Part shown: positions 3 through 21,496 of the stretch, piece after piece
Layout of the letters: each line of letters starts with the position of its first letter
Position numbering within the stretch: position 1 is the stretch's first letter
Origin: Nitrospira sp.
Lineage (GTDB): Bacteria; Nitrospirota; Nitrospiria; Nitrospirales; Nitrospiraceae
Direction: 5' to 3'
DNA length: 64,000 bases
Assembly: GCA_029194675.1 (NCBI GenBank)
Contig: JARFXP010000001.1
Span: 186,001 to 250,000, forward strand
Made by a program: the position numbers and the translations under genes
The notes under the pieces: model-generated
What the model saw: only the letters and a program-made list of their open reading frames with translations
Databases searched by the model: none
Told to the model about the DNA's origin: nothing

Positions 3-356
3 ATCGCCGCTTGGTGGGAAGTCTATGGCTGGAAGGACCGCATCAGGCAGGCGAAAGGTCGGGCTCGGCTATGTGGGACTTGGCAGTGGACCATTCACAA
101 TCACCAGCACCACGAAGAGCAGAAACACTCGATGGTCTTTCCTCCTGACGGACAGGTGCCGGGCACTATTCCCGCACTGTCGGAAATGATCATTCTCGGC
201 GACGGCATTTACCTGCGATGGGAGCAGAACGGGCAGATACAAGAAGACAGTTTACTGTTCATCAAGGACAATACGAAGATCGAAGGGTCATTTGTGAACA
301 ACATGGGAGGATGGGGAGCAATCAGCGGCAAGCGTACAGCCCCCTGTCAGCGGTAG
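3..356 (+). CDS. Partial hypothetical protein (5' end outside window)
   Basis: An open frame runs from the window edge to a TAG stop at 354-356 with no internal stop, so the gene starts upstream. The visible 117 residues include a Trp-rich beginning (AAWWEVYGW), then GTWQWTIHNHQHH and a beta-rich stretch ending in GGWGAISGKR. The pattern of short beta strands resembles a small lipocalin-like or exported barrel domain, but I do not recognise the family. The stop abuts the stop of the DUF423 gene on the other strand, so the two genes are convergent with no spacer, which supports both being real. Confidence 0.55.
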   Translation: MAAWWEVYGWKDRIRQAKGRARLCGTWQWTIHNHQHHEEQKHSMVFPPDGQVPGTIPALSEMIILGDGIYLRWEQNGQIQEDSLLFIKDNTKIEGSFVNNMGGWGAISGKRTAPCQR

Positions 357-749
357 TCAGCTTGCTGCCCCACGCCACGCGCGCCAAGCCAACCAGCCCC
401 AGCCGACAATGAATAACGCGCCTCCAACCGGAGTCACCGCACCAAGCCAGCGCACTCCCAACAACGACACTCCATAGAGACTCCCGGAGAACAAGAGCGT
501 CCCGGCCAGAAACATCCACCCGGCTTTGACTGCTCCGGCATCGCGCCCGATGCGAGCAGCAAAGCCGCTCAGGACCATGCCGAAGGCGTGATACATCTGG
601 TAACGAGTAGCCGTCTCGTAGACGGCCAGCATCGACTGATCCAACAAGTCTTTCAGCATATGAGCCCCGAAGGCCCCGGCTGCCACTCCAAATCCGGCGC
701 TGATACAGCCGATACCGACTAACCACCGAGATGATGCATCGCCATCCAT
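357..749 (-). CDS. DUF423 family inner-membrane protein
   Basis: A 130-residue protein with four hydrophobic segments and the family signature GAFGAHML near residue 27, followed by YQMYHAF and a C-terminal PVGGALFIVGW segment. Length and motif order match DUF423 (YgdD-type) small membrane proteins, whose biochemical role is not established. The start at 749 (MDGDASS) is preferred over an upstream in-frame ATG at 794, because family members begin only about 10-20 residues before the first membrane segment. It converges directly on the partial gene at 3-356. Confidence 0.8.
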   Translation of the reverse strand: MDGDASSRWLVGIGCISAGFGVAAGAFGAHMLKDLLDQSMLAVYETATRYQMYHAFGMVLSGFAARIGRDAGAVKAGWMFLAGTLLFSGSLYGVSLLGVRWLGAVTPVGGALFIVGWGWLAWRAWRGAAS

Positions 750-12279: not shown

Positions 12280-12362
12280 CCCTACCAATGTGCGTAAGGA
12301 CATACGAGGGTCTTGCGCCGGTCCTCGGACGCCGGCAATCTTCCGCTGATTTGCTTCACGGT

Positions 12363-13658
12363 ATGCACGTCAGGAGCTGCAACACATTGCGTCGGAAATG
12401 CGAGACCGGCAAACCACGCCTCTCTCTCGTACAAGCCCTCCTCACCGTGCTACTTATATTTCAGGCAGGTTGTGGAGCCGCGCAGCTCGGGATGTGCGCG
12501 CCGCATACGAAAGAAGAAGGTACGCCTACTCGGAATTGGGTCGAGTGTTTCGGCCAACCCTTTTCAGGCGGGGGAATGACCCATTCGGTGCTCTGCCTGC
12601 ACGACGGCACCGACAAGCCTCCGGTGCTGTTGCTCCATGAGTTGACTGGCCTGTCTCCGGGGACACTTGCCTATGCCGAGGAGCTCTCGAAGGACTTCAC
12701 CGTGTATGTGCCGCTGCTATTCGGCGAGAAAGGCAAGTTTTCACTTACGAAGGGATTGTGGGCCTATTGGTTCCGGGGATCAATGGAGTTTTTCCCCGGC
12801 GGTGAATGGGGCGTCCCGTCTCAAGGAAGCGCTCCTATTGTGAACTGGCTGCGAGGCGTAGTGCAGAAGGTCGGAGAGCGGCACCGTCAACAGTCCATCG
12901 GCATCATCGGCAACTGCATGACCGGTTCGATCCCTGTTGCGCTGCTTGATCACCCACAGGTCGCTGCGGTGGTGGTGGCGCAGCCTGCCTTGCCCCTCCG
13001 TTTCTTCTGGTGGTACACGGATGCCGACCACAAGTCTCTAGGCATTTCCTCAGAAGATATCGTTCACGCCGAACGCAGCACGGCCAAGATTTTCGGATTG
13101 AGGTTCCAAACTGACTGCATCTCGCATCCAGATAAAATGAACACGTTGCGGGAGCGTTTTCCTGACCGTTTTCAATTCGATGGAGAAATCGAGTACCGGA
13201 TGAAAGGAAAGCCAGCCAAGGCTCACAGCACATTGATCGGTTCGTGGAGCGAGCATGGCGAGGCGGGACGGCCATCGCGAGACGCGCGCGAAAAGGTTCG
13301 AGCTTTTCTCCTCAAAGGACTCAGTGAGGTTCGTCCGGCCGGAAAAGAAATACTGCCTCCCTTCACTTTGAGAAAAGACCCTCCTCTCGTTGAGATCAAG
13401 CATCCGCGCTCACCGAGAAGAACCTACGGTCCATTCTTGACTTTCCCTGTCGAAGCAGCTAAGCACATCACGCCCGGCGCTGCCCGAGAGCGGCGGTCGC
13501 ACCTCACCTTGTCAGGAAAGGAGCCCTCCCGATGGCCGAGCTACGACTCTTTTACGCAACCAACCGCAACTACCTCGGTGACGATCGCTGGCGCCCCAAG
13601 GGCTACGGCAAGAAATTCAGTGATGACGGGATCGAGAATCTCCGCTTCGGTCGTGTGA
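12363..13658 (+). CDS. Dienelactone-hydrolase-family lipoprotein
   Basis: An alpha/beta hydrolase of the dienelactone hydrolase type. Strand VLLLHELTGLSPG contributes the oxyanion region, and IGIIGNCMTGSIPVALL holds a nucleophile elbow with Cys (G-N-C-M-T-G) instead of Ser, as in dienelactone hydrolase. A late His lies in KAHSTLIG. The signal segment LVQALLTVLLIFQAGC ends in a lipobox Cys. The start at 12363 (MHVRSC) is preferred to 12288. About 100 C-terminal residues after the catalytic domain are low-complexity, and the last 127 bases overlap the next gene in another frame, so the original stop may have been lost. The substrate is unknown. Confidence 0.65.
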   Translation: MHVRSCNTLRRKCETGKPRLSLVQALLTVLLIFQAGCGAAQLGMCAPHTKEEGTPTRNWVECFGQPFSGGGMTHSVLCLHDGTDKPPVLLLHELTGLSPGTLAYAEELSKDFTVYVPLLFGEKGKFSLTKGLWAYWFRGSMEFFPGGEWGVPSQGSAPIVNWLRGVVQKVGERHRQQSIGIIGNCMTGSIPVALLDHPQVAAVVVAQPALPLRFFWWYTDADHKSLGISSEDIVHAERSTAKIFGLRFQTDCISHPDKMNTLRERFPDRFQFDGEIEYRMKGKPAKAHSTLIGSWSEHGEAGRPSRDAREKVRAFLLKGLSEVRPAGKEILPPFTLRKDPPLVEIKHPRSPRRTYGPFLTFPVEAAKHITPGAARERRSHLTLSGKEPSRWPSYDSFTQPTATTSVTIAGAPRATARNSVMTGSRISASVV

Positions 13659-14665
13659 TCGTCAAGGTCGATGAAGCCAAACTCACCAAGTATCTTGAGA
13701 CGGACTGCGAACCCATGGGACGGGGGGACGGCGAGGGGCTGATCACATACCTCTCCAAGTGCGCCGAGTCCGCCGACATCGTCGCCTATCGGGAAAAGAT
13801 CAATCGGTCGGTCGCCGAACAACAACAGGACAACATCAAGCTCGGCTCCCAAGCAGCCTTTTCAGATTTGCAAACGATCATGCGCAAAAACACGGATGTC
13901 GTGATTTTTATCCATGGCTTCAATGTCTCCTGGACCGACGCCGTCGGCACGGCCCTGTCGCTCCAGGAAATGCTGAACCACAGTCCCGAAAGGGATGCCG
14001 AACAGCACGTGCAAGTGGTGCTCTTCACGTGGCCGTCGGACGGAATGGCGTTGCCCTTCACCTCCTACAAATCGGATCGCTCGGAAGCGGCCGGATCCGG
14101 CAACGCTGTCGGCCGCGGCATTCTCAAGGTACGAGATTTTCTCGCAAGCCTGCGCCGCTCGGATGAACAGCTCTGCGAACAGGACCTTCACCTACTGTGT
14201 CATTCCATGGGCAACTATTTGTTGCAGAACGCCCTTGAGCGGTGCGACGCCTTCACCCCGGGGAACGCCTTACCCAGACTGTTCGAGCATATATTTCTGT
14301 GCGCGCCCGACGTGGACGACACGGCATTGGAAGAGGGCCAACCCTTGTGGCGAGCGCATGAATTGGCCAGAAGTGTCAGCGTCTACCATAATCGTGGCGA
14401 TGTCGCCTTGGTCGTGTCGGATTACACCAAAGGCAATCCCGATCGTCTGGGCTCCAACGGGCCGGCGCGACCGACTCATATCCATAACAAGGTCCATCAG
14501 ATCGATTGCACACCGATCGTCAAAGGTCTCGTGGAACACAGTTATTATCTGGTGGGAAACATCAATGCCGATATCCGCATGAGCATTGATGGCAAACCAC
14601 ACGACGATCCCACCCGACGTCGCGTTCGCGTGGGCTTGATGGGCAATCAGTGGGAAATGCGATAG
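13532..14665 (+). CDS. Alpha/beta hydrolase, DUF900 family
   Basis: 377 residues. The start MAELRLFYATNRNYLGDDRW is typical of the DUF900 family, which recognises the FYATNR motif. The core has VVIFIHGFNVSWTDAV (oxyanion loop), the nucleophile elbow LLCHSMGNYLLQ (catalytic Ser), an acidic strand HIFLCAPDVDDTAL, and a C-terminal His in VEHSYYL. A putative esterase or lipase without a known substrate; no signal peptide, so probably cytoplasmic. AAGGAG lies ten bases before the ATG. It overlaps the end of the preceding hydrolase frame by 127 bases. Confidence 0.85.
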   Translation: MAELRLFYATNRNYLGDDRWRPKGYGKKFSDDGIENLRFGRVIVKVDEAKLTKYLETDCEPMGRGDGEGLITYLSKCAESADIVAYREKINRSVAEQQQDNIKLGSQAAFSDLQTIMRKNTDVVIFIHGFNVSWTDAVGTALSLQEMLNHSPERDAEQHVQVVLFTWPSDGMALPFTSYKSDRSEAAGSGNAVGRGILKVRDFLASLRRSDEQLCEQDLHLLCHSMGNYLLQNALERCDAFTPGNALPRLFEHIFLCAPDVDDTALEEGQPLWRAHELARSVSVYHNRGDVALVVSDYTKGNPDRLGSNGPARPTHIHNKVHQIDCTPIVKGLVEHSYYLVGNINADIRMSIDGKPHDDPTRRRVRVGLMGNQWEMR

Positions 14666-14887: not shown

Positions 14888-16174
14888 TTGTACGATCTGA
14901 AATATCTCCGCGAACACCTCGACCATATCCGCACCTCTCTCGGACGACGCGGGAACGACGTCTCGTGGGCTGATATCCAGAAATTGAGCGAAGAACGACG
15001 AGCCATTACGACGCAGGTCGAGCAGTTCAGGCACGCACTCAATAAGGGCTCGGAAGAGGTTGCTCGGCTGCGTCGAGCCAAAGAACCGGCTGAAGAAGCC
15101 ATGGCGGCGATGAAGCAGTTGGGGGATCGCATTAAGGACGCCGAGGGAACACTCCGAAAGGTCGAGGAGGCGCTCACTGACCTTGCGCTTCGCATCCCCA
15201 ATCTCCCCCATGCCTTGGTTCCGGTAGGGGCTGATGCATCAGAAAACGTCGAGGTCCGTCGATGGGGCACCCTCCCGTCTTTTTCGACCCCCCCCAAACC
15301 TCATTGGGAAGTCGGCGAGAACCTCGGGATCTTGGATTTCGATCGAGCCGCGAAGATTGCAGGGGCCAGGTTTTCCGTCATGACCGGGGCAGGTGCCAGG
15401 CTGGAACGAGCGCTGATCAACTACATGCTTGATCTGCACACAACCCAACATGGATATCGAGAGGTGATTCCTCCTTTCATGGTCAACCGTTCATCGATGA
15501 CCGGAACCGGTCAGCTTCCCAAGTTCGAGGAGGATCTTTTTCGCCTGCGAGATGAAGAGTACTTCTTGATTCCGACCGCCGAAGTGCCGGTGACGAACCT
15601 GCATCGTGAGGAGATCCTAGGAGTAGACTGCTTGCCGCTCCGCTATACGGCCTACACTCCTTGCTTCAGACGAGAGGCAGGGTCCTATGGAAAAGACACG
15701 AGAGGCCTGATTCGGCTCCACCAATTCAACAAGGTGGAGCTGGTGGCGTTTACGACACCGGATCGTTCATACGAAGAGCTTGAGCAGCTGACGGGTCATG
15801 CCGAGTCGATCTTGCAGGGTTTGAATCTTCCCTATCGCGTCATCACCCTTTGTACAGGTGATATGGGATTTTCTGCAGCGAAGACCTATGACATTGAAGT
15901 ATGGCTGCCTTCTCAGCAACAATACCGAGAGATTTCGTCCTGCAGCAATTTTGAATCTTTTCAAGCCAGACGAGCGAACATCAAGTATCGGCCAACCGGG
16001 GCAAAGAAAGAGGTGAAGGCCGACTTTGTCCATACGCTCAATGGTTCCGGACTGGCCGTCGGGCGAACCTTGGTGGCCATCTTGGAAAATTTCCAGCAGC
16101 CTGACGGCTCGGTTGAAATACCTCCTGTGCTGCGACCATATATGGGAGGAATGGATAGCATTAAACGAGAGTAA
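14888..16174 (+). CDS. serS: Seryl-tRNA synthetase
   Basis: Class II synthetase that charges tRNA-Ser (and tRNA-Sec where present). The N-terminal coiled-coil arm spans about residues 1-105. Motif 2 reads [22 protein letters not shown] and motif 3 [19 protein letters not shown] with [24 protein letters not shown] and [11 protein letters not shown] are diagnostic for SerRS. The length of 428 is usual. The start is a TTG at 14888 (MYDLKYLRE), which matches the family's first residues; no ATG fits. A tRNA-Ser(TGA) gene lies 5 kb downstream. Confidence 0.97.
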
Positions 16175-16254
16175 GTTTACCCCGTCGTGCTCCACTAAAG
16201 AACGTTCCAGGTCCAGCACGTTTGGTTTAAAAAGTATCCGACCCCTTAACTTTG

Positions 16255-16380
16255 ATGTTGTTTTTGCCACCCTATTCGCCCGACCTGAACCCCGTCGAGC
16301 ACGACTTCGCCGCGCTCAAGAAACACCGGGAATATCAGGAAACCGCTTCCATCGACCAGATTGTGAAGGCCTATCAATGA
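16255..16380 (+). pseudogene. C-terminal fragment of an IS630-family transposase
   Basis: A 41-residue frame reads MLFLPPYSPDLNPVEHDFAA and then LKKHREY, ending TASIDQIVKAYQ before TGA. LPPYSPDLNPVE is the hallmark C-terminal DDE segment of IS630/Tc1-like transposases with the final catalytic Glu. The rest of the element is missing. It marks the left edge of the AT-richer island that follows. Confidence 0.85.
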
Positions 16381-16487
16381 TTATCGGCTTGGCCATAACA
16401 CCTTGAATTGGGAATCTAACTCGTGTACAAACCCGCCTCCGTTAAGAGGCCCTCGCAGAAAGAGCAAACTACAACAAAGGAGTCGAG

Positions 16488-16679
16488 ATGGGAGCACAGT
16501 GGTCCCTGAGTCAAGAAGAAGAAGACCTGCATCGGCAGCTGCTGTTTCGAAAGGCAAGAAAGGGCGACGAGAAAGCCACGTTGGAATTACAAGAAGTCTA
16601 TGGCGTCAGACTGTGGTCCGAGCAGGAACGGGCCGCGTTGGTCTATGACACGCCCAAACGCGGGAAACGGAAGGGGTGA
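16488..16679 (+). CDS. Small basic/acidic hypothetical protein
   Basis: 63 residues starting MGAQWSLSQEEEDLHRQLL and ending in the basic tail TPKRGKRKG. A strong AAAGGAG lies eight bases before the ATG, which is the main support for expression. The sequence is largely helical with charged residues and carries no motif I recognise. It stands between the IS630 fragment and the unknown minus-strand gene. Confidence 0.5.
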   Translation: MGAQWSLSQEEEDLHRQLLFRKARKGDEKATLELQEVYGVRLWSEQERAALVYDTPKRGKRKG

Positions 16680-16747
16680 ATCAGGCGAGTGGCGGTAACG
16701 GCTTACCCAAAACAGGTATTCCTGTTAGCCCTGGTGGTCGCAGACCA

Positions 16748-17506
16748 TTATTTTTTGTAAGCGTTTCGAACAGCTTCGTCTACAAGATTACCAAGTGGTA
16801 CCAGACAAACTTTAATCTCGCCGTATTCATCCTCCTTGGGAAAGATTCCGTCATCACAACGAATTTTCCAAAGAATTGTGTGATTAGCCGGATCACCCTG
16901 AAGAATCAATTCCCCTATGCGGATCTGCTCGTTTCCATAGATTGGAGATTGGGTCAAGTTCTCATAGATTACGTATTGCGTATCATTGATTGTCGATTCG
17001 CCCTTCTTGCTCAAATTCCTTAATGGCATTGACGGAAATCTGAAAGCTTGTGGAATGTAGAGTGTACTGCGGAAATCTCTGACTGTTTGTTGGCCTTTGT
17101 TTTTTACACAGAATCTGAAAGCTTCAAAAGATGGGCATGTGAATGTTGGTAAGGAGTTTCCTTCAAAACCTTCTAAAAACATCGTTAGAATTGTCGGCAG
17201 CGTATTGGACGACGGTTTTTGATGGAATGGTTCGTAACTGACTGCGTCGCCTTTCAATATGACCTGACCTCTCAAGATAAGGACGTCTGGCACGTCAAAC
17301 TTTCGAATCTGATTCTCGTCGAGGACAAAAGGAGTGTGATCCCGAATAACGTTAAGGAACTCAAAAGCCTTCTTGTCAGGTGTCTCGCCACGGAGAAGCC
17401 ACTGGTTCATATCGGATTCCCAGGAGCCAGTTGAAGAATCTCGTCGTGGATACGGCATAAACTGAAAGGTCCATCCAATGCATTTCTTGAGTTCTTGTCG
17501 GTTCAT
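16748..17506 (-). CDS. Unknown protein, probable partner of the TIR-TPR gene
   Basis: 252 residues, MNRQELKKCIGWTFQF to VDEAVRNAYKK. No signal peptide, membrane segment or recognisable catalytic motif; alternating hydrophobic stretches (DVLILRGQVILKG, YVIYENL, IRIGELILQG, HTILWKIRCDDG) suggest mostly beta structure, perhaps Ig-like. The composition is AT-richer than the surrounding core genes. It starts 60 bases after the TIR-TPR stop on the same strand, so the two are likely cotranscribed, and its job may be tied to that protein. No function is claimed. Confidence 0.65.
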   Translation of the reverse strand: MNRQELKKCIGWTFQFMPYPRRDSSTGSWESDMNQWLLRGETPDKKAFEFLNVIRDHTPFVLDENQIRKFDVPDVLILRGQVILKGDAVSYEPFHQKPSSNTLPTILTMFLEGFEGNSLPTFTCPSFEAFRFCVKNKGQQTVRDFRSTLYIPQAFRFPSMPLRNLSKKGESTINDTQYVIYENLTQSPIYGNEQIRIGELILQGDPANHTILWKIRCDDGIFPKEDEYGEIKVCLVPLGNLVDEAVRNAYKK

Positions 17507-17566
17507 CTGCCGTTAATTGAAATATGGCTAAACCCTGAAGCTTGAAAGAAAACAGCCAAATCAAAC

Positions 17567-19525
17567 TCAGCTCAGACGTGTAAATTTGTAGAACTTGTTC
17601 TCTTTCTCGGATTTTTCGTATATCTGAATCTCTGTAAGTGAATCAGACAATATCATTAACACGGACTTGCCCAGATCCATTCCTCCTCCCAGAATAGTTG
17701 GACGACTTGATGGTTCATCATCGCTGGTCTCTTTATAGGTGGCTCTTACTGCCTTGCCTCGTATTGTTCCCTCATACCTTACAGTATAGGTTGTCTTCTT
17801 ATTGGGACTTGCAGGTTGACCTATTAATAGCCCTGCCAGACTGTTATACGATATGCGTTCATAGCTTCCCTCTGCTTTGAAGGAATCCCCTTTTATTGTA
17901 ATGCTTAATTCGCATGCATTCCCCTGCCATCTGCCCTGATGGTCTCCTACCGTCTCTTTCGCAAGTGCATAGCCATAGTTTTTGAAAAATTCGCTGAGCG
18001 GGATTGCTTTGTTTTGTAACTCCTTTAATTCTTTTCCTTCTTCCTCAGGCAGCTCTCTAATTCTGCCAATCGCAGAAACAACATTCTTGTGATAATCCTT
18101 TATTTTTATAGCCCGATTGCAAATTTCCTCTGCTTCCGTCAGGAAGCCAGCCTTTATGAATTTGTATGCCAGATTACTCATTGCTAGTGTCTCTTCATGT
18201 TTCTCGGACTCCCGATAGGCCTCCACTGATTTACTAGCCAGCTTAAAATGATCGAACTGTACGCCAAGGTTATTCCACGTGATAGGAGTACGTTCTCGAT
18301 ATGGAATCTTCAGATAATGATATAAGGAAAGTTCCTCAGCTCCCTTGTCAGAGTACTTGTAAGCCAATTCAAATCGAAGGTCGATGTCGTCGGGGCGAAG
18401 ATCAAGCAGTTTCTCCGTCAAGCTACAAAATTCATCATCGGACTTCTCAATTTTGGTGATTTCCTTCAGCGTGTAAAGAATCGTCAATTCACCATTTTCT
18501 TGTGGTGGTGTCATTGATTTCATTTTCTCAACAATACGTTGCGCTTGATCTCGTCGTGTCGCGGCCGCAAACGCAATTGCAGAGTCACCATACCTTCCCA
18601 ATTTCTCCAATTCGTTTTCAGTCTTTTGAGCGGCTACTTCGAAATATTGAGCTGCCTTTTCCTGCTCCCCGTACCGCTGATAACCTTGTGCTCTATACAT
18701 CACAACGTCGGCATTATCTGGATGGTCTATAGCGAATTGATCCAACGTGGTGAGGCGACCACCTTTACCCGTTCTCAGAAGAGCAAGCTCATGATAGGCC
18801 TCCCAACTAGCGCGCTTTTTCGAATCTTTTGCTTCCTCCGTCGCCAAATACGCTTGATCAATTGCTTGTTCACTATCTTTGTCTCCGATAAAGATTGTCT
18901 GCATCAAGGCGAGTTCGAATCTATCTCTGTCCCAGAGTGGATCAGGTTGAAGCCAATCCTTTTCCTGGCTGGGCTTCACATCTTTTTCTTCCGGTGCTGT
19001 TCGTACTTCTCCTTCTACTCTCGTAACTGTTATAGCTTTTGGGTTTAGCGAATTAATCATTTCCATTAGTTTTACAAATGATCTTTCGGGAGATGCACGG
19101 TCGAAAAGGATGTATTCCTTGTCGCCCTGCAAACCTCCTGGCAGTCGCAGGCCCTTCTCGATTAATAAAATTAGCTCCATGCCTTTCCCAATTGCTAAGC
19201 CTATTTCTTGAATGATCCAATCCGATGTTTTTGGCTTGAAGGACTCCTCTCTCGCCATAAGATCTTTCCCGAATAACGTTGGCTTCAGTTCCTCGGGAAG
19301 AATTGCCGCTTCTTTTTTTGTACAAATACCAATAAATAGGTTTTTGTCTTGCATCAATGCTAATACCTTATCGGCAAGTTCTTTTGGCTGTGCTGCTTCA
19401 GCAGAGACCCACGAGAAATCGGGATTTGTTGCCTTGAGCTCGTTAAAGAATTTTTGAAAGACGCGAACTACATCTTCGTCATCGGGAGTGAAACTGTGGC
19501 CGATAAATGCTTTAAGAGCTACCAT
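17567..19525 (-). CDS. TIR-like domain protein with TPR region and C-terminal beta domain
   Basis: 652 residues. The N-terminus (about 1-150) has a TIR/STIR-like fold: LKAFIGHSFTPDDEDVVRVF, then a strand KNLFIGICTK, then SDWIIQEIGLAIGKG followed by ELILLIEKGL. Glu107 in WIIQE sits where NADase TIR proteins carry the catalytic Glu. Residues about 190-480 form helical TPR-like repeats (YHELALLRTGKG, YRAQGYQRYGEQEKAAQYFEVA, NNLGVQFDHFKLASKSVEAYRESE, NLAYKFIKAGFLTEAEEICNRAI). The last about 120 residues are beta-rich (GRWQGNACELSITIKGDSFKAEGSYERI). TIR plus TPR is common in bacterial anti-phage sensors, where TIR depletes NAD or makes a signal; that role here is inference. It heads a two-gene unit with the unknown protein downstream. 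Confidence 0.75.
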   Translation of the reverse strand: MVALKAFIGHSFTPDDEDVVRVFQKFFNELKATNPDFSWVSAEAAQPKELADKVLALMQDKNLFIGICTKKEAAILPEELKPTLFGKDLMAREESFKPKTSDWIIQEIGLAIGKGMELILLIEKGLRLPGGLQGDKEYILFDRASPERSFVKLMEMINSLNPKAITVTRVEGEVRTAPEEKDVKPSQEKDWLQPDPLWDRDRFELALMQTIFIGDKDSEQAIDQAYLATEEAKDSKKRASWEAYHELALLRTGKGGRLTTLDQFAIDHPDNADVVMYRAQGYQRYGEQEKAAQYFEVAAQKTENELEKLGRYGDSAIAFAAATRRDQAQRIVEKMKSMTPPQENGELTILYTLKEITKIEKSDDEFCSLTEKLLDLRPDDIDLRFELAYKYSDKGAEELSLYHYLKIPYRERTPITWNNLGVQFDHFKLASKSVEAYRESEKHEETLAMSNLAYKFIKAGFLTEAEEICNRAIKIKDYHKNVVSAIGRIRELPEEEGKELKELQNKAIPLSEFFKNYGYALAKETVGDHQGRWQGNACELSITIKGDSFKAEGSYERISYNSLAGLLIGQPASPNKKTTYTVRYEGTIRGKAVRATYKETSDDEPSSRPTILGGGMDLGKSVLMILSDSLTEIQIYEKSEKENKFYKFTRLS

Positions 19526-19817
19526 CTTTCCTTTCCCTCAGGCTTCTAAAATTGTTGCGGTATATCGCTTTTTAAGTAAGCACTTTCATTCATAAAGACT
19601 GATTCGCGAGTTGCTGTAGGTATGGAGTTGTGTTGCCAATGCGGCATGAGGCTACCGCACTTCGGGTAGAATTCCAAGTAGGCGTCGCCAAATACACGTT
19701 TTCTGTACTTGCTCTCCTCCACTGTAAAAGGCAAGAATATCACCGCCTGGTGGTCGCACCGCTCAGCCATAGCATTTGATATGGCTCGGCTCAACTCTGT
19801 ATTAGAAAGCTAAGCAG
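19526..19817. promoter_or_regulatory. Divergent intergenic region between TIR-TPR and HNH genes
   Basis: 292 bp from which the TIR-TPR unit and the HNH-type gene are transcribed in opposite directions, so promoters for both should lie here. I see no clear palindromic operator. Confidence 0.35.
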
Positions 19818-20459
19818 ATGCAACCTCCTAAGAGCGAGACATGCGTCCTTTGCGGCATGATGCCTGCGGAAACCGTAGATCACGTTCCACCTAAAGGTTT
19901 TTTCAAGGGTGTCGTGAACGCGCAACTTCGAACGGTCCCCGCTTGTCGGACTTGCAATAACGGCGCATCGTCAGACGACGAGGATCTACGCTTTTATATA
20001 AGTGCCCAGATCGGAAAGGAGAATTCAGCTTCGAAGAAACTCTGGGAAGATGGCGCACACAAAACAATTTTGCGAAAAACCAAGCTCCGCAAGGCGTTTC
20101 TTTCAACCGTAAAAGAGATGGCTGTCGTGAGTGAGGATGGTTCCTCTACTACAAGAATTGCATTTACTCTTCCCGCTGAACCCTACAAGCGTGTCTTTGA
20201 ACGTACAACACGCGGTCTGTACTTTTATCACACGGGCCGTATCCTTCCTGCCAGGGTACCTGTATCAGTCAATATGCTGACTGGAACTCCGGATATGGAT
20301 ACAGAGGAAACTCGATTACTTAATATGCACACCATTGGAGATGGCGCATTCGTATATCGCTATGGAGTGGCGCCTGAAGATCTCGACAGTAGTAGCTGGA
20401 TCTATGAATTTCATCACGCGCATTGGGCCCTAGTTACGACAGGGGCTGTCGCAGAGTGA
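19818..20459 (+). CDS. HNH-endonuclease-like protein
   Basis: 213 residues. The N-terminus carries a zinc-binding HNH layout: CVLCGMMPAETVDHVPPKGFF, then about 20 residues on, VPACRTCNNGASSDDE. CxxC, Asp-His, and CxxC-Asn are in the right order for HNH nucleases. The remaining 150 residues are unassigned, with a hydrophobic mid-part (RGLYFYHTGRILPARVPVSVNML) and an acidic, aromatic C-terminus. Such HNH proteins occur in defence islands, but this one could also be a non-nucleolytic zinc protein. It is divergent from the TIR-TPR gene and shares its AT-richer composition. Confidence 0.7.
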   Translation: MQPPKSETCVLCGMMPAETVDHVPPKGFFKGVVNAQLRTVPACRTCNNGASSDDEDLRFYISAQIGKENSASKKLWEDGAHKTILRKTKLRKAFLSTVKEMAVVSEDGSSTTRIAFTLPAEPYKRVFERTTRGLYFYHTGRILPARVPVSVNMLTGTPDMDTEETRLLNMHTIGDGAFVYRYGVAPEDLDSSSWIYEFHHAHWALVTTGAVAE

Positions 20460-20811
20460 GAGTTGTTTCTGACAGCTTTTACATTTTCGGCGCTCTCCGT
20501 ACTGCCATAGACATATTCTCACCACCTAGGTGTCTCCACTATTAGCTTTCGTCCATCGACCATAGTAAGGTTCCGTTCGAGTCGAGACGTGGGAGTACAG
20601 CGTCTCGATAGGTGGGATTGACGGAATTGTTTGGCCTCGGCCTTGATGCCGAGTGGGTGAGAACAAAACCGGAGAGCGAATTGCCTGCCCACCTTCCTTC
20701 GTACGGATCAAGCTGAGCCTTGCACCGGCAGACGCTTTGATTCGGGGAGTTGTCGGCCATATAGGCCGTCCCCAGTCGCGTAAGACTACAACACTAAATT
20801 GTTAGATCCGT
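20460..20811. other. Intergenic stretch, nothing recognised
   Basis: 350 bp between the HNH gene and the integrase remnant region. A minus-strand translation reads NSVNPTYR, reminiscent of non-coding repetitive sequence often seen around mobile DNA; no gene is supported. Confidence 0.3.
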
Positions 20812-21141
20812 TTGGATTTAATTTTTCGTGTTGGAGTCTGTCTGCCCAAGCGTCCTGCTCCCGTTCCTCGTCATACTTCGATCCATCACCAGTCGATTCG
20901 CCCCTCGACGCGCTTTAAGCGCCTTCCGGTGTGGGTCAGCAGGGCCGACATCGTCGCCTACCTTAAGCTCAGTCCGACCGATGCCCAGGCCCTCTTCGAT
21001 AGCGCCGATCGTCGGTGCGTTATCGATGGCGTCGAAAAAATCAGCAAGTACCAACTCCAAACGCCACCCTACCCTGACCTCATCCGGGTGATGCAGCGCC
21101 ATCCGTCGCGTCCGTCGGTTCAGCCGATTTCGATGAACTAG
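20812..21141 (+). CDS. Possible helix-turn-helix protein or its remnant
   Basis: A TTG-initiated frame of 109 residues. The middle part VWVSRADIVAYLKLSPTDAQALFD looks like an excisionase or MerR-type helix-turn-helix, and the flanks look degenerate. It lies directly before an integrase fragment, so it may be the decayed excisionase of the same element. No ribosome-binding site supports the start, and the call is weak. Confidence 0.3.
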   Translation: MDLIFRVGVCLPKRPAPVPRHTSIHHQSIRPSTRFKRLPVWVSRADIVAYLKLSPTDAQALFDSADRRCVIDGVEKISKYQLQTPPYPDLIRVMQRHPSRPSVQPISMN

Positions 21142-21284
21142 CTGATCCGTCCTTTGTAAAACAACACCCGAAGAAATGCGAATGGGTGTTTACCAAGCCC
21201 AACGGAACCCCGTATACTGCCGTCCGAGGATTTCGTGAAGCATGTCAGAAGGCCGGCTTCATCGAAAAGCTTGTAATTGTCTGA
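21135..21284 (+). pseudogene. Fragment of a tyrosine recombinase (integrase)
   Basis: The open frame reads KKCEWVFTKPNGTPYTAVRG and then FREACQKAGF, ending at TGA 21282-21284. F-TKPNGTPY-x-x-V-x-x-F-x-x-A-x-x-x-AG is the stretch that precedes the HxLR motif in phage integrases. The catalytic HxLRH, GH and Tyr are missing. It lies 122 bp before tRNA-Ser, the usual neighbourhood of integrated elements, and marks the right edge of the 16.2-21.4 kb island. Confidence 0.75.
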
Positions 21285-21292
21285 AAGAACAG

Positions 21293-21408
21293 TAGGCTCC
21301 GGGTCGAGCGAGCTTGGTTAATTATAAGAACACTAAAATGGTTTTATCCGGCGACTCTATTACGAAAAATCGATGAATAGTCGCCGGGTCAACCGAAGGT
21401 TGGTTTGG
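21293..21408 (+). repeat. Structured tRNA-abutting element, copy A
   Basis: It begins with TAGGCTCCGGGTCGAGC and ends with GGTTTGG, whose last two bases are the first two of tRNA-Ser. Inside are a 9-bp stem (CCGGCGACT / AGTCGCCGG) with a conserved loop (ACGA-n-AAA-n-C-n-ATGAATA) and a second hairpin CAACC-GAA-GGTTG. A second copy of nearly the same length lies at 38128-38245, with different but self-complementary stems. Confidence 0.75.
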
Positions 21409-21496
21409 AGGGGTGACGGAGCGGCCGAACGTGCCGGTCTTGAAAACCGGAGATGGGGTAACTCATCCGCGAGTTCAAATCTCGCCCCCTCCGCCA
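21407..21496 (+). tRNA. tRNA-Ser (anticodon TGA)
   Basis: The 7-bp acceptor GGAGGGG pairs with CCCCTCC, and CCA is encoded at the end. The anticodon stem is CCGGT/ACCGG with loop CTTGAAA, giving anticodon TGA. The long variable arm (GATGGGGTAACTCATC) and the T arm GAGTTCAAATCTC are class II features typical of tRNA-Ser. Confidence 0.97.

Follow-up and report, generated by a model that had tools for sequence, protein, structure and literature searches.

A putative TIR defence protein family carried as cargo in type I restriction-modification operons, with a solo copy in a serS/tRNA-Ser hotspot of Nitrospira

Gene content of the locus

We examined a 64,000-bp stretch of a Nitrospira sp. genome (bases 186001-250000 of contig C1, referred to here as the window), which carries a gene for a 652-amino-acid protein combining an N-terminal TIR domain, a TPR region and a C-terminal beta domain. 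Here we refer to it as the TIR-TPR protein. Its gene lies between the seryl-tRNA synthetase gene serS and a tRNA-Ser(TGA) gene, together with a 252-residue gene with no assigned function and a divergent gene with an HNH layout (Table 1). The three open reading frames (ORFs) were confirmed where a preliminary description of this DNA had placed them, and the AT-richness that it reported was also found, with a GC content of 0.42-0.48 in the three genes and 0.53-0.60 outside. The bounds that it gave, namely an IS630 relic on one side and an integrase relic with the tRNA gene on the other, were likewise recovered. A search for relatives of the 82-codon frame that precedes the TIR-TPR gene found none, and its interpretation as an hsdS relic was rejected.

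Table 1. Features of the serS/tRNA-Ser(TGA) hotspot in the window and domains of the TIR-TPR protein
Feature	Position	Strand	Basis or remark
serS, seryl-tRNA synthetase gene	14888-16174	+	left border of hotspot
IS630-type transposase C-terminal relic (LPPYSPDLNPVEHDFAALKKHR)	16252-16377	+	left part of insertion; translation, by eye
Short conserved hotspot ORF, 62 aa	16488-16676	+	found after serS in three congeners as well
252-aa gene, unassigned function	16748-17506	-	60 bp downstream of TIR-TPR gene, same strand
TIR-TPR-beta protein gene, 652 aa	17567-19525	-	ORF list, model and homologues
82-codon open frame	19546-19794	-	candidate ORF
HNH-layout gene, 213 aa (CVLC...DH...CRTCNN)	19818-20459	+	opposite strand to TIR-TPR gene
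Tyrosine-integrase relic (WVFTKPNGTPYTAVRGFREACQKAGFI)	21153-21281	+	translation, by eye
tRNA-Ser(TGA)	21407-21496	+	right border of hotspot
TIR domain (predicted)	residues 1-161		Glu107 near window 19205-19207
Disordered linker	residues ~162-195		
TPR helices	residues ~200-520		
C-terminal eight-stranded beta domain	residues ~529-650		

Domain architecture and fold of the TIR-TPR protein

The AlphaFold2 model, made with 25 homologues (mean predicted local distance difference test score, pLDDT, of 83), showed an alpha/beta domain at residues 1-160, helical repeats at 200-520 and eight strands at 529-650, in agreement with the TPR region and the separate C-terminal beta domain noted earlier. 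The N-terminal domain modelled alone had a pLDDT of 89. Searching structures with this domain in Foldseek gave the SfSTING TIR (E 1.7e-4) and the SARM1 TIR as top matches, and VIA-align also placed the SfSTING TIR first (Z 14.7, 2.6 A over 124 residues), with Z of 12.9 for the SPARTA TIR and 12.2 for ThsB (6lhy). Full-length fold searches were dominated by TPR proteins.

At the sequence level, the TIR-domain profile aligned in hhalign with the CAP12/PCTIR TIRs of related genomes (E 1e-6, probability 91), at which the motif IIQEIGLAIG was paired with NVIHEIGxFQG. Gly9, Phe12, Thr100, Ser101, Trp103, Gln106 and Glu107 were invariant in the 25 homologues, the TSxWxxQE motif was unchanged across them, and the conserved Glu107 falls in the motif aligned with that of the CAP12/PCTIR TIRs. 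With Pfam and NCBIfam models, the TPR matches were weak, and the sole other lead, to CAP12-PCTIR_TIR over residues 6-134, was sub-threshold. Its 12.1 bits are below the Pfam gathering cut-off of 24.7 for this family (PF10137), so that the link to it is made through the profile-profile comparison only. No Pfam match at E<=1 was obtained for DUF4062 (Swarozyc TIR-like NADases). None of the PADLOC-DB TIR-effector models matched the window protein or four homologues; the only PADLOC-DB matches of the window protein were STAND_TPR and a 2TM effector model, over the TPR part.

Judged from the profile comparison and the model, residues 1-161 are a TIR-type domain, which bears out the TIR-like N-terminus with Glu107 of the preliminary description. 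By analogy with what is known of TIR enzymes, this domain is probably an NADase. For the beta domain, the PDB profile search returned chance-level matches only (best TbpB, E 0.087) and Pfam no match of note. A lipocalin or avidin barrel was considered from a GxW start seen by eye; no support for it was found.

Distribution of the family and reuse of its modules

Three full-length relatives besides the window's own were found in 296 genomes of its phylum. The 274 genomes searched from the class around Nitrosomonas yielded one with a full-length match and three with matches that were partial or differently organised. In 84,980 species genomes, a scan revealed 32 TIR-TPR loci (L023 being a duplicate of L016) from Nitrospirota, Nitrospinota, Pseudomonadota, Bacteroidota, Planctomycetota, Omnitrophota and other groups, and one further locus (L055) came from viral contigs. 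The 36 loci considered hereafter comprise those of the species-genome scan and the viral contig, the window and the three phylum loci. The family is sparse. No relatives of either the TIR-TPR or the 252-residue protein were found in the phage and plasmid collections, and no description of the family was found in the open PubMed Central (PMC) literature.

The TPR-beta module was also found in other contexts. In L069 and L070 it stands behind a hydrophobic N-terminal segment with no TIR, in L018 a domain close to the C-terminal beta domain stands alone, and phrog_31809 matches residues 371-650 of the TIR-TPR protein. Together these suggest that TPR-beta acts as a sensor that can be coupled to more than one kind of output. 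The N-terminal segment in L069 (7053-8687, minus strand) and L070 (7049-8722, plus strand) is probably a membrane segment, and these proteins are possible sister effectors.

Apart from the RM setting described below, most TIR-TPR loci had no recurrent neighbour, in favour of an autonomous gene. Single neighbours of note were an 8xMP membrane protein gene on the viral contig, 2 bp downstream of TIR-TPR (L055, 11959-12501, plus strand), a CAP12-PCTIR TIR gene just upstream of a broken TIR-TPR gene (L049, 1539-2336, plus strand) and a GmrSD-type restriction gene directly upstream of another (L048, 8062-9888, plus strand).

Embedding in type I restriction-modification operons

The recurrent setting of the family is a type I restriction-modification (RM) operon. 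In 8 of the 36 loci (L015, L016, L024, L025, L027, L030, L032 and L053), hsdS lies directly upstream of the TIR-TPR gene, with gaps of -4 to +41 bp by called starts in L015, L016, L024, L027, L030 and L032, and a nominal -56 overlap in L025 that is due to an upstream start call; in L053, just a TIR remnant follows hsdS, and then a Fic remnant. Where the contig reaches, hsdR comes before and hsdM after, and the Pfam matches were those of HsdR (EcoEI_R_C, HSDR_N), HsdS (Methylase_S) and HsdM (N6_Mtase, HsdM_N). Two loci that looked solo (L026 and L041) retain a 34-residue relic of the hsdS C-terminus, with about 50 bp between its end and the TIR gene downstream, and L026 has in addition a 23-residue hsdM relic behind its Fic gene.

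With these two, 10 of the 36 loci are RM-linked now or were formerly. By a rough estimate, the chance of such a placement for a random gene among about 3,500 genes is well under 1/100. The TIR tree requires 6 changes of the RM label, and supported branches force at least 4 of them; the linkage has therefore been gained or lost repeatedly. The window copy is not among the embedded or relic-bearing loci, and a tblastn search for RM relics beside it, with E values of up to 10 allowed, returned nothing above chance level. Gene overlap had raised the suspicion of RM linkage in L052 and L050 as well, which was rejected as a CoA-transferase or an ABC1 kinase gene adjoins there instead.

The hsdS-hsdM slot as a cargo site

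HsdM relatives of this RM family were found in 36 of the 296 phylum genomes, and in 20 of the 36 we read the region preceding hsdM. Its cargo varied, with DarT and DarG, AbiEii, Fic, GmrSD_N together with RelA_SpoT, an Mrr-type nuclease, ATPases of the OLD/AriA-like and HerA-like kinds, TGT and DUF6880 among the genes seen. Different cargo, such as DarG in L120, accompanies congeneric HsdMs that share 93-97% identity with the L015 protein. The cargo thus differs while HsdM is nearly constant, and defence and toxin genes are rapidly exchanged in the hsdS-hsdM slot of this EcoEI-type type I RM family within the phylum. This agrees with previous reports of DarTG2 and TgvAB residing inside type I RM operons (PMC12255303, PMC11411939).

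Embedding in this slot is good guilt-by-embedding evidence for a role of the TIR-TPR protein in defence; the role proposed in the preliminary description is thus supported by genomic context, since the family recurs in a slot that carries known defence genes as well. On the other hand, the exchange argues against a dedicated partnership between the TIR-TPR protein and the RM enzyme.

Two further observations concern the cargo. Several of the genes before hsdM in L120-L139 are unannotated, and a gene of the Fic family is repeatedly found after TIR-TPR or beside the lone C-terminal domain, and also in the RM slot with no TIR-TPR gene (L016, L017, L024, L026, L018, L126, L132 and L134-L136).

Proposed mode of action and alternatives

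The explanation that we favour, with moderate confidence, is a single-protein abortive-infection NADase that moves as exchangeable cargo and of which the window holds a solo copy. The TPR/beta module would meet an infection cue and release or assemble the TIR, which would cleave NAD+ with Glu107 as the putative catalytic glutamate, and the cell would then stop supporting phage growth. The gene would need neither the 252-residue nor the HNH gene; the family would move between genomes as defence cargo, often into the hsdS-hsdM gap, and the window copy would be a solo one in the serS/tRNA-Ser hotspot. Observations in its favour are the TIR-type fold, the invariant Glu107, the recurrent RM embedding, the varied defence cargo of the slot, the lack of conserved partners, the empty hotspot of relatives and the occurrence of TPR-beta with another N-terminus in L069 and L070. 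We infer the NADase activity, its trigger and the phage defence in this scheme, and the TIR-TPR gene is probably a stand-alone defence gene.

Three observations weigh against this explanation. Some TIR-TPR loci lie among housekeeping genes with no defence gene visible, and a PDB sequence search with the TIR profile gave no match. Moreover, nucleotide N-glycosidases of the DNPH1/MilB type reach Z scores of 12.4-13.6 in VIA-align, near those of the TIRs and up to about 1 from the SfSTING TIR, and thus the fold alone leaves the substrate unfixed.

Another explanation, unlikely but the best surviving of the alternatives, is that the TIR-TPR protein guards the type I RM complex, as PrrC does for EcoprrI, and depletes NAD+ when a phage anti-restriction protein disables the enzyme; TPR-beta would sense the blocked HsdS/HsdM complex and orphan copies would guard in trans. 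It would fit the recurrent place right after hsdS, often overlapping or nearly abutting it, and the association that recurred or was lost repeatedly on supported branches of the TIR tree. Known guardians of RM enzymes include PrrC and PARIS (PMC12707154), RloC shows a similar pattern with RM linkage in only 8 of 73 cases (PMC2610378), and HsdR-type genes are present elsewhere in the window's genome. Guarding in trans has been proposed for orphan RloC. However, no RM gene lies near about 70% of the TIR-TPR loci, many unrelated defence genes occupy the slot and are swapped beside a nearly constant HsdM, and no Methylase_S match was found in 3 of the 12 genomes reached through the loci. Across six embedded loci, TIR and HsdR identities correlated only weakly and not significantly (r 0.32, with 92 of 720 permutations as high). 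A PrrC-like guard is possible and weaker than self-contained cargo. If true, NAD+ depletion would join the small number of mechanisms by which anti-restriction is known to be sensed.

Perhaps the N-terminal domain acts on a nucleotide other than NAD+, for example a modified phage nucleotide, as an N-glycosidase of the DNPH1/MilB type. Many of the best structural matches (Z 12-13.6) are to DNPH1, MilB and deoxyribosyltransferases, and the viral library gave matches to nucleoside deoxyribosyltransferases. We consider this quite improbable, since a TIR was the first match in both Foldseek and VIA-align, the profile matches CAP12/PCTIR TIRs (in a comparison that did not include deoxyribosyltransferase families), and the weak Pfam lead is also CAP12-PCTIR_TIR.

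Neighbouring genes and the serS/tRNA-Ser hotspot

The preliminary description had grouped the TIR-TPR gene with its two neighbours into one candidate defence system. At the other 35 TIR-TPR loci, tblastn detected neither neighbour, so that conserved co-occurrence, whose absence that description itself had named as refuting, is lacking. The 252-residue protein has one close relative (61%), in genome G153, with no TIR-TPR gene near, and G153 is not among the genomes with a match in the TIR-TPR search; two distant partial matches were likewise free of TIR-TPR. Relatives of the HNH protein were found in 11 other genomes of the 198 searched, with no TIR-TPR gene in their fetched surroundings. The HNH protein matches HNH/PtuB-like models over residues ~3-54 only and belongs to an independent sparse family.

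The segment at 16.2-21.4 kb of the window is an insertion in a serS/tRNA-Ser(TGA) hotspot (16174-21407). In four relatives (L147-L150), tRNA-Ser(TGA) follows serS by about 0.1-0.2 kb and the hotspot is empty, and congeners L154, L155, L157 and L158 have other cargo between the two genes. A piece of the window's integrase relic is also present in the same hotspot of L155. Because the segment is such an insertion, unrelated genes lie together in it. The 252-residue gene is not a conserved partner of the TIR-TPR gene, and a defence system of all three genes, or of the TIR-TPR and 252-residue genes, is rejected as a conserved set and very improbable overall, despite the 60-bp distance, the shared strand and the shared low GC content of the latter two, as both neighbours' relatives occur apart from TIR-TPR and the hotspot explains the clustering.

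The tRNA-Ser match in L154 and L155 is limited to the initial part of the sequence, as would be expected of an interrupted gene. A duplicated tRNA 3' end was considered as an attachment site and rejected, since a 25-base piece of this end occurs once in the window with no att pair. Upstream of serS (window 12288-14665), two alpha/beta-hydrolase-like genes were seen, with a DLH-like lead and a DUF900 match.

Comparison with known systems and significance

The closest solved fold and, by profile, the same sequence class are those of the CAP12/Pycsar-type TIR effectors (PF10137), including the bacterial STING TIR, with which the family shares a conserved Glu in an ...EIG motif. Unlike these effectors, whose STING or other receptor domains detect cyclic nucleotides and which adjoin a cyclase, the TIR-TPR family has a TPR and a beta domain and no recurrent cyclase nearby. 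It resembles PrrC and RloC in having an effector gene inside a type I RM operon, and RloC in being partly RM-linked and partly orphan, but its effector is a TIR domain and not an ABC-ATPase anticodon nuclease.

DarTG2 and TgvAB are likewise independent defence genes carried in a type I RM operon; their effectors differ, and DarTG2 of E. coli lies between hsdS and hsdR, whereas TIR-TPR lies between hsdS and hsdM. SpbK is a single-gene TIR NADase that causes abortive infection (PMC12847820), likened here by description and not by homology, and the families differ in sensor architecture, that of TIR-TPR being the TPR-beta module. The Thoeris protein ThsB shares the TIR fold; it makes a signal for ThsA, whereas no ThsA recurs with the TIR-TPR family.

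We thus regard the family as a putative TIR defence protein carried as RM-embedded cargo. Its recurrent hsdS-hsdM embedding is a strong genomic handle on a TIR-TPR-beta family that the Pfam, NCBIfam and PADLOC TIR models tried do not match, and the hsdS-hsdM slot can be mined for new systems.

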